Source of the DNA: Cinnamomum chago
Lineage: Eukaryota > Streptophyta > Magnoliopsida > Laurales > Lauraceae
Direction: 5' to 3'
DNA length: 64,000 nt
Assembly: GCA_038049695.1 (NCBI GenBank)
Contig: CP142455.1
Span: 23,163,501-23,227,500, forward strand
Made by a program: the position numbers and the translations under genes
The notes under the pieces: model-generated
What the model saw: only the letters and a program-made list of their open reading frames with translations
What the model was told of the DNA's origin: nothing
Databases searched by the model: none
Part shown: one piece after another, positions 56,105 to 64,000 of the stretch
How positions within the stretch are numbered: the stretch's first letter is position 1
Layout of the letters: every line of letters starts with the position of its first letter

Positions 56105-56113
56105 CTACGTGTA
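56105..56113. repeat. MULE left target-site duplication (CTACGTGTA)
   Basis: Perfect match to 62999-63007. Nine base pairs is the standard length for Mutator-like insertions. Confidence 0.95.
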
Positions 56114-56157
56114 GGGAAATTCTATATGTACCCACCTATTCTCCTGAATACACCTAC
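56114..56157. repeat. MULE left terminal inverted repeat
   Basis: About three quarters identical to the reverse complement of 62955-62998, perfect over the first 12 bp. Confidence 0.9.
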
Positions 56158-56620
56158 TTGCTGACCGCACCACACCCATTCTAATTTTGGCTTGATTTTG
56201 CTGAGCACACCCACCATAATCCCCAGACTGCCCATCCAACCTCACCGTTCGTTCCCTGTTCCATTTCCTAAACATTCTCTCGTTTGCATTTTTTAAATTT
56301 GTGGCCATTCGGAGTCGTCCCACTTCACAGCTCTGAAACCCTCGTGGACAGTTGGTGAGCTGCGCTCCTTCTTCTTCGTCTTCTTCATCAGGACAGTGAA
56401 ACAGGTCAGAGCCCTTCTTCTTCTTCTTCTTTTTCATAGGTTTATCATTTTCACAAATTTGTTTAGGTTGTAATTTATGCATTAGAGAGTATAGTTGTGA
56501 GACCTTTGCAACAAATATGGAAGAATTTGGTGTGAAAAGAATAGTTTCGAACTCCAGTTTTTCATTTTTGAAAACATCTGTTCGCGATCTGCTCGGCAGT
56601 CCAGAGACGTGCAGGGATTT

Positions 56621-56814
56621 TATGCACGGCAATTGTAAACCGTGCAGAATATATATGCACGGCCTATATAAGCTATGCACATATAATTTGCACGGTTTCA
56701 TATAACCGTGCAAACATAGGTTGTACGGTTACATTGAGTTGTGCAAACAGAACTGGCACGGTTCCATTTCGCCGTACAGAATAATGTTGCACTGTCTATT
56801 TAAACCGAGCAGTA
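56621..56814. repeat. Palindromic 33-bp repeat cluster 1 (six units, before the mobile domain gene)
   Basis: Units start at about 56621, 56654, 56688, 56721, 56754 and 56787. The best units read TGCACGG, about 10 nt, CCGTGCA; the third has a 9-bp stem (TGCACGGTT/AACCGTGCA). Sequence between arms varies. A likely splice acceptor (TTTTTTAACAG) at 56860 suggests the cluster may lie in a 5' UTR intron of the mobile domain gene. Confidence 0.88.
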
Positions 56815-56869
56815 CAAAAAAATATGATATCCTCTTTTATTGGTTTTCTTTTTTAACAGATTGGAAGAA

Positions 56870-59190
56870 ATGCCGAGAAGACCAGCTCGCCGTATTGGTG
56901 GAAGCTCACAGATGACAGGGGGACGGGCCAGTTCTTCTAGCAAGCCATCGAGAGTTCGGACGAAGATCGGTGTCTCAAGATCGCGTTCCCGAGGTGTGCA
57001 TGCGAGTTCTTCGACCGCCGGCCGTCAACGGCCAACGGCGTCTGAACGAAGACGAAAATTGCAACAGGATCCACTCCCGGAGCAGGTTGAGGAGCATGTT
57101 GACAGTTCTTCAGAGGATGATTCCTCAGAGGAGGAGGCACAGTCGTTCAGTCCCCGTGCATCGGCACCAGGAGAAGAGCATGGTGACAGTTCTTCAGAGG
57201 ATGATTCCTCTGAGGAGGAGGCACAATTGTCCAGTCTCCCTGCAGCGGCACCAGGGGAGGATGATTCCCATTTCGAGGAGGGACAGCCATCCAGTCCTCC
57301 GGCTGCGGCGGCAAGGGAGGGTCCTATCCCCGGCGGTCCGGCCGACCTATCTGTCCTTATGAGTTTTAGGACACACGTAGCCTTGTCCATATGGGACGGG
57401 GAGGTACAATTGCCTTTTTTAATGTTTTAATTAATCGTTTTTCAAATAAGATGTGTTGAAGTCTATAATAACAGATATTAATGAAGATTTATACTTGTAA
57501 TGTGCAGGAACGTGAGGCACTCAAGTGTATCAATCATTGGCGAGGGCTGAAGGATTGGTACATACCTTTGCCCGGGGATGGGGCCGATATCCATGTTCCT
57601 CGATTTTATGCTATTATAGAAGAGTCTGGATTGGCAGATTTGAAGCGTTTTTCTTACCGATATATCTCCAGCCCTCTGGTATCCAGCTTTGTAGAGAGGT
57701 GGCAGCCCGAGACAAATACATTCCACATGCCATTTGGTGAGATGACGATCACCTTAGATGATGTGGGTACTCTCCTCGGCATCCCAGTAACGGGACTGCC
57801 TGTCCACGCATCGACTAGTATGGGATTTACTGATCAAGTAGATTTACTTGAGCGTGGACTGGGCGTGGATAGGGCATCTGTGTCAGCTGAGTTGAGAGTA
57901 GCTCATGGTGGGGTAGTGAGGATGGCCTGGATCAAACGGGTGTGCGGCGATGTGAGTCCTGCGTCGTCTGTTGAGCAGGTAGAGTGTGCAGCTAGAGGCT
58001 ATCTTCTGTATTTGTTAGGCTGCACACTCTTCTCCGATAAGTCAGCCACTCGAGTCCCCATTGCCTACCTACATTTACTGATGGACTTGCCACGGGTCCG
58101 TCGTTATGCATGGGGGGCTGCCGCACTTGCATATCTTTATCGCCAATTGGGGACCGCCACGAGGGCAGACGTGCGACAGATTGCTGGATATCTGACACTG
58201 CTCACGGTAATACATATACATATACATGTTCCATCGTAATTGATCATTTAAATTTATAATTAATAATTGGTATCTTTTGCAGTCTTGGGTGTACGAGCAC
58301 TTCCCATTTACCCGTCCTCCTGCGCAGTGGGGATATACCGCTGGTATGCCTCAAGCGAGCCGCTGGAATGCTGGACAGGATTTTGGGATTGCGAGGGAGA
58401 ACATAAAACTGTTGCGTGAGAGGCTGGATGACCTACATCCGAGTCAGGTGAGCACCCATATGGGGTCCTTGGTATAATGTTGCACTTTTTTTCAATGAAC
58501 AAATTTTTATTATAATAATGAGTTCTTTCATTTACTTGCCACAGGTCCAGTGGGATCCATATACTGGTGTCAGGGCTCATCATCCATTCCATCAGATATC
58601 TTTCTTCTGTGGTTGCTTGAGAGTGCTAGATGTCATTGAACCCTACCATCCACATAGGGTTCTCCGACAGTTTGGATATGTACAGACCATCCCACCCGCA
58701 CCGCTCGCCCCCATTCGTGCATCTCGGGGATCTACTGTTGGACAATACAGGGTCTCTTACAGATTTCTAGACCAGTACTGGGTTACTTGGGAGGATCATG
58801 TATTGTCCTTAGCGCACCGCGGCCATCGAGCGCAACATGCATGGGAGTGCTCACCCGACTACCTCGAGTGGTTTTCTAGGATTTCACACCCTCGAGTACA
58901 GAACCCCCAACGTCATTCCCACTATCACCCTAATGAGGGTGTAGCTGACTCGACTCCAAGAGTGGTGAGTGTTTGTACTTTATCGAAACATTATGCATCC
59001 ATTTGTTATACTTATCTTAGGTATTGACACAGTTAATTGTTTCTTACAGATCACTCGGGCGAGGGACCATCTCCGCGCTACGATTGCACGAACGGAACAG
59101 CCTGCAGATTTCTATTACCGGGCACTCCAAACCACCCTCGAGATCCTGGATGGCTTGCCGGTGACATACCGACGACGTACAGATCCATGA
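56870..59190 (+). CDS. Plant mobile domain (PMD/MAIN-like) protein carried by the MULE
   Basis: Five exons: 56870-57403, 57508-58206, 58283-58447, 58545-58964, 59050-59190. All splice at GT-AG in phase 0, giving 652 aa. Residues 1-60 are basic and Arg/Ser-rich. At about 75-150 two copies of an acidic SSEDDSSEEEAQ repeat occur, then a Pro/Ala-rich linker. From about 185 to the end is the plant mobile domain (aminotransferase-like PMD): HWRGLKDWYIPL, FHMPFGEMTITLDDVGTLLG, VECAARGYLLYLLGCTLF, WGAAALAYLYRQLG. Host relatives (MAIN/MAIL1) act in meristem maintenance and transposon silencing; other PMD genes ride in MULEs and LTR elements. A role in mobility or silencing evasion is only inference. 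The ATG chosen is the first after a probable 3' splice site at 56860. Confidence 0.85.
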
Positions 59191-59233
59191 TGGCATGAGG
59201 GTTTTTTTTTTGTCTTATTCTTTTGTTAAGTCT

Positions 59234-59330
59234 GTATGGATGGGAAATTAAAGCATACACTTTAGAGGATGTATGGATGGGAAATTAAAGCATACACTTT
59301 AGAGGATGTATGGATGGGTTTATCCATTTT
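59234..59330. repeat. 37-bp tandem repeat after the mobile domain gene
   Basis: GTATGGATGGGAAATTAAAG plus 17 more bases is repeated exactly at 59234-59270 and 59271-59307, then a partial copy begins at 59308. TATGGATGG recurs further to about 59365. Lies in the 3' flank or 3' UTR. Confidence 0.85.
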
Positions 59331-59499
59331 TGGGATTTCAGGAATTTTTTGGATATGTATGGATGGATCACCTGAGTTTTTGGATGTATCCATTTTTTTA
59401 ATGGATGTTTTGAGGATACACTTTTTTATGTTTGAACTTGTATGGGCCTTATGGATATGTATGTTATGTGTTTCTGTCCGAATATTTGCTAAAATACAC

Positions 59500-59655
59500 T
59501 GCACGACCACCATGTACCGAGCAAATAGTGTGTGCACGGCACTTTATTAATGTGCAAATAGTTTATGCACGGCAACTTTATTCCGTGCATTATCCATTTT
59601 CACGGAACATATTCGCCGTGCAGAACAAAATTGCCCAGCCATGTTTAACTGAGCA
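59500..59655. repeat. Palindromic 33-bp repeat cluster 2 (five units, between convergent stops)
   Basis: Units start at 59500, 59533, 59566, 59599 and 59632, exactly 33 bp apart. The third is TGCACGG ... CCGTGCA; the outer ones are degenerate (TGCACGA, TGCCCAG). Same motif and period as clusters 1 and 3. Confidence 0.88.
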
Positions 59656-59800
59656 GTTGTTAATGAAGTAATACATTCTTTGGAATATTATTAATGAATT
59701 AATACACAACATAAACACATAAAGACTTGATCGAATTCATTGGCCATCCAATACAAAATAGGTAATATGTTTGGTTACATCAAATGGAGAGTACACATAA

Positions 59801-62654
59801 TTAATCGCTCTCAAGATTGGCCGACTCCTGCGTTGCGACACTGTTTCCAATCAATTCTCTGAATTGCTCGATGCTCTTTGCATATGGGATTTGCCATCCG
59901 TCTGCTTCAGGATGGTGGTGTCTATGCCAATTTGTAGCAATGGGAGGCATGAGTGATTCGGGTTTCATGAAGACCTGAACAAAATGGTTTCCATTGACGA
60001 AACCAACCGCGAGCACTTTGTGAGAACTTAATGGAATCGAGGATGATCTCAAAGGCAGGAAAGTAAGGCACTGCTGCAGTGAAAGAAGGACCAATACAAC
60101 GTTATAATATGAAGATATTAAGTGACCCATGTCCGGCATTGTCATCCATCGATCAAATGAAGGATTGCTTTCAAAGTAACACAATGCGTAATACAGCTCC
60201 CCAACCCTGTCCTCTCCTCCATAGACCAGTGCATAATAATTTTGATACCTCTGCAATTCATTGCTCAAATCCATTCTAACCTGCATCCATTTATCCTCGC
60301 CCATTCCTAGGAGACCAGCTATCGCTCGGAATCCACAGTTACCATCAGCTGCAACATCCTTAATAGTGTGGATATAGGGGCCCAAAGACTGAGGAAGCAA
60401 ATGCAGAAACGTACATGACCGAGTGCGACGGACAGTCATTTTCTCCTTATTCTTCGTTGCAACTGTATTGCTTAATCTACCTGGAACGCTATCTTTTATC
60501 GACAGTGCGTATTCAAAATTAGATGGTTCCCGACGCGTAGATCTATCCAACTTCTTTCTTTTCGATGATGACCGACCGCGGGTATTCAATTTTACGTCTG
60601 GTTCGATAAGAGAAGTAGATGAAGGACAACCGAGTTCTCTAAGTTTTCTTAAAATTTGTATTTTACCCTTCTGATCACTACTTTGAAATCTCTTAGTGAT
60701 CAACTCGAACTCTGAAGTTGTGGTCAACTCAAGGGCTTCGTTCACCATAGTGGCTTCTAAATTAAGCTTCCGCCAATAGTGGTGGACACTACTCAGTGGT
60801 ATATGAGAACCTTCCCTTATGTACTCGGCAATTTCATGTGCACATGGCAAACCATGAGTCCGTCGGATTACGCACCCACATGATGTAGAATCTGGACCAA
60901 TATCACTAGCCCTTAACGACTCATTTAACACTATATCCAAAGCATTCCTTGATAGAAATCCTCTCAATTCACGAAACAGTGCCGGTTTGAACTTATGTTG
61001 CACGGTGTTCAAACTCTTTTCAAAAGAAGCCTTTATTTCTGTAAAAAGCAACTCTAGCAAGGCATGTATAACCTGCCAGGACGAATCAAAGCTACAGCTC
61101 GATGTGCCTAGGTGTCTCTTTAATTTTGCATGTGCACTCTCAGCTCTGTTAGTAGTGACGTTCCCAAAGTGCATATGCCGATCCGTCCATGCAGCCACAA
61201 ATTGCTCCTTATGCTTATTCAACCATGAGGTCTTCACATAATCAACAGCATGTGGATACCCGCAGTAATTCCGTTCCAAAGCACTTAGCATTTGCGTGTA
61301 GTCGCTTTCAGTTGGAGAGACTACCAACGTGTTCCAACAAGAGATAAATGCAACCCATCTGTCGTTGGTCTCAAAACACTTCTTACAATTTGCCAAGATG
61401 TTCCTAGAAATATGCCACCTGCATAATAAGTTTGCTGCATTCGGAAAAATAACATTTATTGCATTCATCAGCGCTAACTCTTTGTCTGTGACAATCACAC
61501 GGGTCGTGATGCATCCATCCATTAATTCCTTAAGCCTCTCCAAAGCCCATCTATAATTGGCCTCCCTCTCTGATTCAAGGTACACAAAAGCAACGGAGAA
61601 CGTCAATTGAGTAGATGTGACACCAACAATCTCAAGCAAGGGAAGTCGATATCTATTAGTCTTGTATGTGGAATCCATTATCAAAACTTCTGGAAATGCA
61701 CGTAATAACTGAATAGATGATGGATGTGCCCAGAATAGGTTCATGATAACATCTGTAGCATCGTTGATAGTGTGATACTCAATGTAGTTGTTCTCTTCCA
61801 AATGCCTCATGAGTTGCTGTATTTGTGATCGACCGGCCATCTCTGTCACCCTAAACTTCTGGCGAGCATTGTAGATACTCTTAATTGTAGTGGTGTTGTG
61901 CACATCCCTTTCCTGCAATGTTCGAAGGATGTTCCTCGGTTTCACCAAACTATTAGACATATCAATCAAAACGTTGATTTCTTCCACAGAAAGCCTCCCA
62001 GCAAACGAGTGCCCCTCTAGATGCTGTGCGTTTGGATGATTGTGCACCCCACAAACCACTGTTAACATCCAATCGTCGTCAGTTGCCAACTTTCGACCCT
62101 TCAAAGCAAAAGGGCAACTACACTTCTTCGTTCCCGTTGCCTTCTTAGGATTTCTCTTCTCGAATACCTTCGATGGACTCCTGTAACTACCACTTCTCTC
62201 ACAAGAAAAAACGACTCTCGGCTTCCGTCCATCTCCACCAGCATCCGAAGTCTTGATTACAATTACCAAGCCATGTTTCTTTCCAACATCCCTTGTCCAT
62301 TGGATTAGGCCCTCTCGACTTCTGAATATCATGTCAGTGGTGAAGACATTTGTAAAATCCAAAAGGCACTCACTGGCACCGGTTGATTCAACCTCCTGCA
62401 AGTCACAAATTTTTAGATTAGCACTGCACACTCATTTATTAATTTTGCACGGTTTATATAGGCGGTGCAAAATTATTCTGCACGGTTTATATAGGCGGTG
62501 CAAAATTATATTGCACGGTATATATAGGCAGTTCATAATAATTTTGCACGGTATATAGAATGCCGTGCAGGACGCGAGAAAACAAAAAAAAATGAACGAA
62601 ATGAAGTCAAAATGTATATACCTCATTTTCGTAGATCGTCAATTGCTTGTCCAT
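59801..62654 (-). CDS. MULE transposase with C-terminal OTU cysteine-protease domain
   Basis: Two exons: 62654-62622 (MDKQLTIYENE) and 62395-59801, GT-AG intron in phase 0, 875 aa. FAR1/WRKY-GCM1-like zinc finger about residues 30-135 (Cys76, Cys103/105, His129/131). MULE catalytic domain follows with probable DDE residues Asp252 (LIMDSTYKT), Asp315 (VIVTDKEL) and Glu430 (TNRAESAHAKL). SWIM zinc finger: Cys517, Cys519, Cys529, His531 (CGCVIRRTHGLPCAH). A Lys/Arg-rich linker (about 618-634) leads to an OTU domain: Asp695, Cys698 (DVAADGNCGFRAI) and His815 (NGNHFVQV). The core should cut and join element ends; the OTU part could remove ubiquitin or a similar modifier. The frame is uninterrupted. 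Upstream Met assignment rests on the splice prediction. Confidence 0.9.
62446..62570. repeat. Palindromic 33-bp repeat cluster 3 (four units, in the transposase intron)
   Basis: TGCACGG starts at 62446, 62479, 62512 and 62545, exactly 33 bp apart. Units 1 and 2 are nearly identical (TGCACGGTTTATATAGGCGG then TGCA). The last is TGCACGG ... GCCGTGCA. Lies in the intron between transposase exons 1 and 2. Confidence 0.9.
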
Positions 62655-62807
62655 ATTGCAAATGCCTACTTTAAATACACAATGTGGTGTAGGGATAATT
62701 GTACTTCCAAGTTCGTTCAATAAATGGAGGAGACTTGATGATATATTAAAAAGAGTTAGAAGAAATGATGATGAAGGAGATGAAAATCAATGAGGAAGAA
62801 GGAGTGC

Positions 62808-62849
62808 GAAGAAGAAGAAGAAGAAGAAGAAGAAGAAGAAGAAGAGACT
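62808..62849. repeat. GAA microsatellite near MULE right end
   Basis: About thirteen GAA/AAG triplets, opposite a CTT-rich stretch near the left end (about 56370-56440). Confidence 0.85.
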
Positions 62850-62954
62850 GGAGACTGCTGCTGGTGAACTAAAGGAGGAAGACAGATGTTGATGGTAAGG
62901 GCAATTTCATCCTTTCACCCGAGGGCATTTTAGTAATTAAAAATTATTTAAGTT

Positions 62955-62998
62955 GTGGGTGTATTCATCACTTCCAGTGGGTGCGAATAGAATTTCCC
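62955..62998. repeat. MULE right terminal inverted repeat
   Basis: Reverse complement starts GGGAAATTCTAT and contains GCACCCAC and GAATACACC; pairs with 56114-56157. Confidence 0.9.
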
Positions 62999-63007
62999 CT
63001 ACGTGTA
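62999..63007. repeat. MULE right target-site duplication (CTACGTGTA)
   Basis: Perfect copy of 56105-56113. Confidence 0.95.
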
Positions 63008-63132
63008 ACTACCTCCACATACTTTTTGAAGATGCAACCACTGATGGATCAAAGTTTTCAGTCTTCTGCAAATCTCTCTGCAACTTATCTACTTGGCTCT
63101 CCATCTTCATCCCTAATCTGTCTTCTCATCAA

Positions 63133-63335
63133 AGGTACTTTCCCTATCTGATTTCGATTTTTTACCTTTTTTTTTTTTTTTGTTCACTACTGCTGAATGA
63201 AACGATTACATCTACAATCTCTTTTCTCTAGGGATTCGAAGGTACTTTCCCTCTTTGATTTCGATTTTGGACCTTTTTTTTTTTTTTTTTTGTTCACTAC
63301 TGCTGAATGAAACGATTACATCCCCAATCTCTCTT
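63133..63335. repeat. About 107-bp tandem duplication
   Basis: GGTACTTTCCCT ... T run ... GTTCACTACTGCTGAATGAA then ACGATTACATC occurs twice (about 63133-63240 and 63241-63335), differing by a few bases and T-run length. Confidence 0.8.
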
Positions 63336-64000
63336 TCGGATGGGTTCAGAAAGATGTCAAGAGACAGGGGGAGGGTTGTGGGTGGGCAAGGAGAGAGGGA
63401 CGAAGAAGGGGAGATTTGGGTTTTGGGGGTTTTGGGTCAATGAGAGACAGGAGGATCAGAGAGTTTTTTGGGTTTTTCGTTGTACCTGATCAGGGATCGG
63501 AGAGGTTTTTGGGTTTTGGTCACTTATTTGTCCTGCTTCTTTTTCAAATTCATCGCATCCATCACACGTGACCTGATCATGTATGCAAAGATAAACTCGC
63601 ACAAAGCCTGTTTAATGGCAATGTCTGCCCATTCTAGGGAAGACCGTTTGACAAAAGTACTCTTGCTCGTTGCCAAACATCCTTGGGGAATTTAACAGAG
63701 AGTTTTTATTCCATTTGGGTTGGAGGAACGAGAGAAATAATGCACCCATTTTTTCTGTACTTTTTCCTTGATTGATTTCTCATATGTAATCTAAAGATGG
63801 AAGAGGGTTCTATTTAATAGTTGCTCAGCTGTGGGCATCACAATAAATAACCTTCTGTTCTCATGTGAGCAATGTTCCCATTTGTTGTAGTTCTCAATGG
63901 CCTCAATCTCCTTTTTCGTGGTCCTTCTCAAAGTATTATTTTTTTTTATCAAAATCCATTTGATGATTTGATCACTATAGCAAAGTGAATCTCATCATCA
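63336..64000. other. Right-end flank, no gene recognised
   Basis: Contains GGGAGAG-rich and TTTTGGG-rich sequence (63360-63520) and AT-rich DNA. It could be the 5' region of a gene outside the window, but nothing here is recognisable. Confidence 0.35.

Follow-up and report, generated by a model that had tools for sequence, protein, structure and literature searches.

Structure of the element

The window, i.e., the whole 64,000-nucleotide stretch of DNA analysed here, lies within the 1.06-Gb genome of Cinnamomum chago (14 contigs). It contains a Mutator-like element (MULE) that encodes a plant mobile domain (PMD) protein and a transposase and carries three palindrome arrays, referred to as C1, C2, and C3. 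The features are as follows, in window positions.

56105..56113: left target site duplication, CTACGTGTA
56114..62998: MULE, 6,885 bp, ends GGGAAATTCTAT (defined by sequence, target site duplication, and transposase domain)
56114..56157, plus strand: left terminal inverted repeat
56405..56859, plus strand: possible 5' UTR intron of the PMD gene, which would contain C1 (splice sites by eye)
56590..56811: array C1, 7 palindromes, 14 half-sites, before the PMD start codon
56870..59190, plus strand: PMD gene, predicted splice model, exons 56870-57403, 57508-58206, 58283-58447, 58545-58964, and 59050-59190; 652 aa
59500..59655: array C2, 5 palindromes, 10 half-sites, between the convergent stop codons of the PMD gene and the transposase
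59801..62395, minus strand: transposase exon 2
62396..62621, minus strand: predicted transposase intron containing C3
62446..62569: array C3, 4 palindromes, 8 half-sites, within the predicted transposase intron
62622..62654, minus strand: predicted transposase exon 1
62955..62998, minus strand: right terminal inverted repeat, with CGCACCCAC and TACACCCAC 22 bp apart
62999..63007: right target site duplication, CTACGTGTA

The 9-bp duplication on both sides and the inverted ends are those of a Mutator-like element, for which a duplication of about 9 bp is expected. The terminal inverted repeats (TIRs) carry the motif YRCACCC twice, as direct repeats 22 bp apart. Of 15 left ends in the family, 12 have TGCACCCAC at position 14 of the left TIR; the window copy is changed to TGTACCCAC. 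Immediately to the right of the MULE lies a 110-bp tandem duplication (63132-63337).

The transposase (ORF2) runs on the opposite strand to the PMD gene, convergent with it, and has 875 aa by the predicted splice model. Its MULE transposase domain (PF10551, E 6.9e-25) likewise identifies the element as Mutator-like. The N-terminus matches Pfam AFT above the cut-off (E 4.1e-7) and FAR1 below the FAR1 cut-off (E 2.2e-4), and its best PDB match is a weak one to Aft2 (4lmg, E 0.058). As for the C-terminus (59801-60500, minus strand), it looks OTU-like by eye, and Pfam lists no OTU there at E 0.001.

The product of ORF1 is a PMD protein (PF10536, 237.5 bits vs a gathering score of 34.9), PMD being the only family listed for it at E 0.001. 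Its three best homologues belong to Cinnamomum micranthum (71-74% identity), and others were detected in Camellia, Stephania, and Diospyros. For a close homologue, the predicted fold matches VANC21 on DNA (9lnj) according to the predicted model; by sequence, no VANC21 match was found. DUF1985 was not detected by sequence (14.7 bits for P0001 vs a cut-off of 35.1), and 25 of 45 homologues have weak matches to it at E up to 10, the best being 4.3e-4. DUF287 is absent among the 18 families listed in the homologue profile search, the filters of which drop weak matches. Two tandem repeats accompany the gene: an 84-bp one within ORF1 (57089-57256), which codes for an acidic, serine-rich stretch, and a perfect 37-bp one (59233-59306) directly after the stop codon.

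Geometry of the arrays

Each array unit consists of a 24-bp palindrome TGCACGG-N10-CCGTGCA and a 9-bp linker, giving a period of 33 bp. The half-site TGCACGG and its complement thus switch strand each time, with start-to-start steps of 17 and then 16 bp, and the only irregular step across the three arrays belongs to the last palindrome of C3 (18 bp in place of 17). The original prediction, made from the window alone, had described clusters with a common 33-bp period before the PMD gene, between the convergent stop codons, and within the transposase intron. These places are correct, and so is the period, since the seven unit starts of C1 are all 33 bp apart; a 34-bp step claimed for that cluster was not found in it. 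The predicted unit counts of 6, 5, and 4 agree with C2 and C3, while C1 has seven palindromes rather than six. The idea that 33 bp, as about three helical turns, would place all sites on one face of the DNA is only approximately right: with 10.5 bp per turn the period amounts to 3.14 turns, and successive sites would rotate slowly round the helix.

The arrays are confirmed and lie well outside what chance would produce. Scored as strict-phase chains, C1, C2, and C3 reach 31, 21, and 17, respectively, vs a best score of 3 in 20 first-order Markov simulations of 64 kb. Between units, half-site identity is far above spacer identity in C1 (0.79 vs 0.34) and C2 (0.77 vs 0.31), which indicates that the palindrome and the spacing are the maintained features there, as originally proposed for all three clusters. 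C3 departs from this pattern, being uniform throughout (0.90 for half-sites vs 0.82 for spacers; three units compared, the irregular fourth omitted), and the likeness of its half-sites and spacers points to recent duplication of its units. Derivation of the arrays from the TIR motif was rejected as stated, because YRCACCC is repeated directly, at 22 bp; TGCAC is common to both.

Other copies of the family

In the transposase search, 52 of 3,811 candidates were scored, and these 52 are 93-100% identical. Genomic slices were fetched by the exact N11 palindrome of C3, and 16 of the 19 obtained are family copies; the presence of C3 in them therefore follows from the selection, and that of C1 and C2 does not. 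C1 is present in 14 of the 16 copies (12 with 14 half-sites, one with 12, and one, L030, with an extra unit and 16) and C2 in all 16 (15 with 10 half-sites and one with 8). C3 is found in 15 (10 with 12 half-sites and 5 with 10), the slice of L030 stopping short of it. The window copy of C3 has two units fewer than the longest family copies, and among the copies array units are gained and lost in whole 33-bp steps. Purifying selection on half-sites was sought among these young copies and is not clear; in their C1 alignment the row of L019 is a wrong short match, which inflates the C1 values.

Several slices show local peculiarities. L026 and L027 are overlapping slices of one tandem pair on contig C8, with copies about 4 kb apart, and no C1 array was found in the second copy of the pair. 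L009, L010, and L022 carry a second, shorter C3 array because the start of the transposase and its intron are locally duplicated. A lone palindrome in L002/L034 is not part of an array and was taken as chance.

Arrays outside the family

Genome-wide, the exact N10 palindrome has 637 matches (vs 1 for the reversed pattern), the exact N9 linker 397 (vs 1), and the exact N11 palindrome 21 (vs 0). Among the N9 matches listed, 15 extra loci were chosen for spacers unlike those of the window family, all on one contig (contig C1). All 15 have longer chains, with half-sites and phasing as in the window. With the selecting pairs excluded, the phased positions have scores of 3.83 and 3.86 out of 7, and when spacing is counted without a preset value, 17, 16, and 33 bp dominate. 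Since 14 of 20 chains start with TGCACGG and finish with CCGTGCA, the N10 palindrome is suggested as the unit. In the truncated diverged relative L024, the intron chain scores 10.5, whereas 2,000 simulations gave at most 4 and 200 permuted half-sites at most 5. A chance origin is ruled out by the simulations, the permuted half-sites, the reversed-pattern counts, and the phased scores at other loci.

The arrangement of arrays and genes is as in the window in 13 of the 15 chosen loci: the array adjoins the transposase N-terminal exon in seven, the PMD start in five, and lies between the two C-termini in one (L041). The remaining two (L042 and L043) have arrays with neither gene in view. The PMD N-terminus is 35-42% identical in L035, L036, and L040. 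C2 was not found in L035/L050, where the PMD 3' exons are also missing, which makes its absence uninformative. Two non-autonomous MULEs were noticed among the slices: one of 711 bp (L018:4846-5556) with a 9-bp target site duplication GGAACATTA and two palindromes just within the left TIR, and another in L042 (about 490-1070) with the duplication CAATTTGTT, assigned by eye, and nine phased half-sites within the left TIR.

In comparison with 10 diverged arrays, half-site identity is 0.70-0.85 and spacer identity 0.43-0.73, a column being marked as half-site if one or the other sequence resembled the motif there, a procedure biased towards half-sites. When diverged copies are compared in close pairs, half-sites have no advantage (for example, 0.83 vs 0.91 for L045-L024 and 0.88 vs 0.93 for L047-L049). 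We read this as decay after insertion, because most changes are C>T and G>A at the CpG, of which each half-site contains one. Judging from these alignments, the pattern can be read as long-term constraint combined with decay of dead copies. Thus, clusters, period, and arms are all kept in other copies and in diverged families, as the original prediction asked to be checked, and internal binding sites, one of the functions it offered, appear to be the right class of answer.

Candidate binders of the arrays

We favour, with a probability of roughly 0.6, a reading in which the PMD protein acts as a VANC-type anti-silencing factor with sequence specificity and has the arrays as its cis targets. 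We infer that the protein would bind each 24-bp palindrome, probably as two subunits, one per TGCACGG half-site, and would occupy the array cooperatively. Once bound, it would mark non-coding DNA in its own MULE families and in their non-autonomous derivatives and would counter methylation (i.e., lead to demethylation) and silencing of the marked DNA, so that the PMD and transposase genes would remain expressed and the elements able to move. Specificity for such a short motif would come from array density and phasing. The short arrays beside the left TIR of the non-autonomous elements in L018 and L042 are what is expected of a cis signal acting in trans on derivatives. Several points speak against this reading: the fold evidence is a prediction on a homologue and would suit host silencers as well, the arrays share neither the single direction nor the between-family change of VANC motifs, and half-sites of young copies are under no clear constraint.

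The main rival binder is the transposase finger, and the earlier suggestion of internal sites for a FAR1-type finger seems sound as to the sites and less so as to the protein: given the VANC21-like fold predicted for its homologue, the PMD protein is probably the better candidate. Binding by the AFT/FAR1-type finger, with internal sites that would repress or tune both genes by autoregulation or aid assembly of the transposition complex, TGCACGG then being a version of TGCACCC in the TIRs, we consider rather unlikely. The AFT and Aft2 matches of the N-terminus speak for it, as do the TGCAC core shared by array half-site and TIR motif and the retention of short arrays beside the TIR in non-autonomous elements. 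In addition, yeast Aft1/Aft2 are described in the available excerpts as preferring TGCACCC/ACACCC, which resembles the YRCACCC found twice in the TIRs. However, the array motif ends in GG, not CC, the arrays are palindromic at 17/16 bp in contrast to the 22-bp direct repeats of the TIRs, and this explanation leaves both the predicted VANC21 fold of the PMD protein and the VANC-like placement of the arrays unused. The more likely target of the finger is the YRCACCC motif in the TIRs.

It is improbable that the arrays are recognised by a transcription factor or chromatin protein of the host that activates or represses the two genes. Palindromic half-sites at fixed spacing are typical of dimeric factors and would fit one, but half-site and phasing recur in all 15 array loci outside the family, and each reversed pattern quoted above for the N10 palindrome and N9 linker has a single match in the genome.

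The chances of the hairpin RNA source, also raised originally, are very slim. Array transcripts would form hairpins and supply small RNAs that help or counter the element; the palindromes do lie in presumably transcribed regions, and tandem repeats are named in the available excerpts as possible sources of siRNA. However, the half-site sequence itself is kept, beyond pairing, and the arms do not co-vary (9 double changes vs 17.4 expected, 4 of the 9 complementary, and 200 one-sided changes), so RNA pairing is not the kept feature. Functionless tandem duplication of a short palindrome, which would suit the turnover in 33-bp steps, the near-identical C3 units, and the little-constrained half-sites of young copies, is scarcely credible, as spacers of C1 and C2 are unrelated between units and families and yet half-sites and phase persist at the same three places.

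Comparison with known systems

The original prediction knew of no named MULE feature of this kind, which is not quite right, because the target repeats of VANC anti-silencing proteins in Arabidopsis VANDAL MULEs are of the same kind. According to the available text of two papers (PMC5735166, PMC10398659), the VANC motif is YAGTATTAY, occurs in one orientation, and differs between families; excerpts also state that VANC21 covers the non-coding arrays of VANDAL21 and that VANC proteins have tandem peptide motifs in variable regions. Both systems combine a transposase with an accessory protein, and both have short motifs densely arrayed in introns and upstream regions, i.e., in non-coding parts of the element, with units gained and lost. 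The PMD protein further resembles VANCs in the VANC21-like fold predicted for its homologue and in the tandem peptide repeat encoded by the 84-bp repeat. In contrast, the accessory protein here is annotated as PMD, and neither the single orientation nor the between-family change of the VANC motif was found in the arrays: TGCACGG alternates strands at 17/16 bp and is common to diverged families. The TIRs are recognisable here, whereas those of VANDALs are called degenerated in the available text.

MULEs with PMD are reported, in the available part of the source, from grasses and Amborella, with speculation on anti-silencing use (Ikeda 2017, PMC5418596). The PMD of those elements is described as a fusion with the transposase, in contrast to the separate convergent gene with a candidate target found here. 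The host proteins MAIN/MAIL1 differ in that they keep transposable elements (TEs) silent, and the available sections mention no tandem array target (PMC5418596, PMC7156037). Among the matches listed, with bioRxiv outside the scope, no literature links PMD to the VANC21 structure or describes these arrays.

In the available excerpts, sequence-specific anti-silencing of TEs is described for VANCs of Arabidopsis VANDALs, and a 2021 review counts the plant mobile domain among domains of unknown function. If true, the anti-silencing reading of the PMD protein would extend such a mechanism to another MULE lineage, in a distantly related plant, whose target code has persisted through long divergence. 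It would give the plant mobile domain a biochemical role and would provide a structural basis for the earlier speculation that PMDs encoded by TEs counteract silencing. It would also suggest that the host silencing factors MAIN/MAIL1 are DNA readers with a VANC21-like fold. A wider generalisation is tentative, with the odds somewhat against it: all of the PMD family would be VANC-fold, sequence-specific DNA binders, TE-encoded members opening array-bearing elements and host MAIN/MAIL1 reading motifs to silence, so that related silencers and anti-silencers may compete for DNA, and this MULE lineage would represent a second, palindrome-based system outside VANDAL with one target code across families. 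The anti-silencing reading is directly testable, as protein, motif, and spacing are all specified.

A further parallel is TnpA of Spm/En, a protein that is encoded by its element, has numerous short sites within it, and is linked to demethylation. It differs in belonging to the CACTA superfamily, in the subterminal position of its sites, and in its motif.
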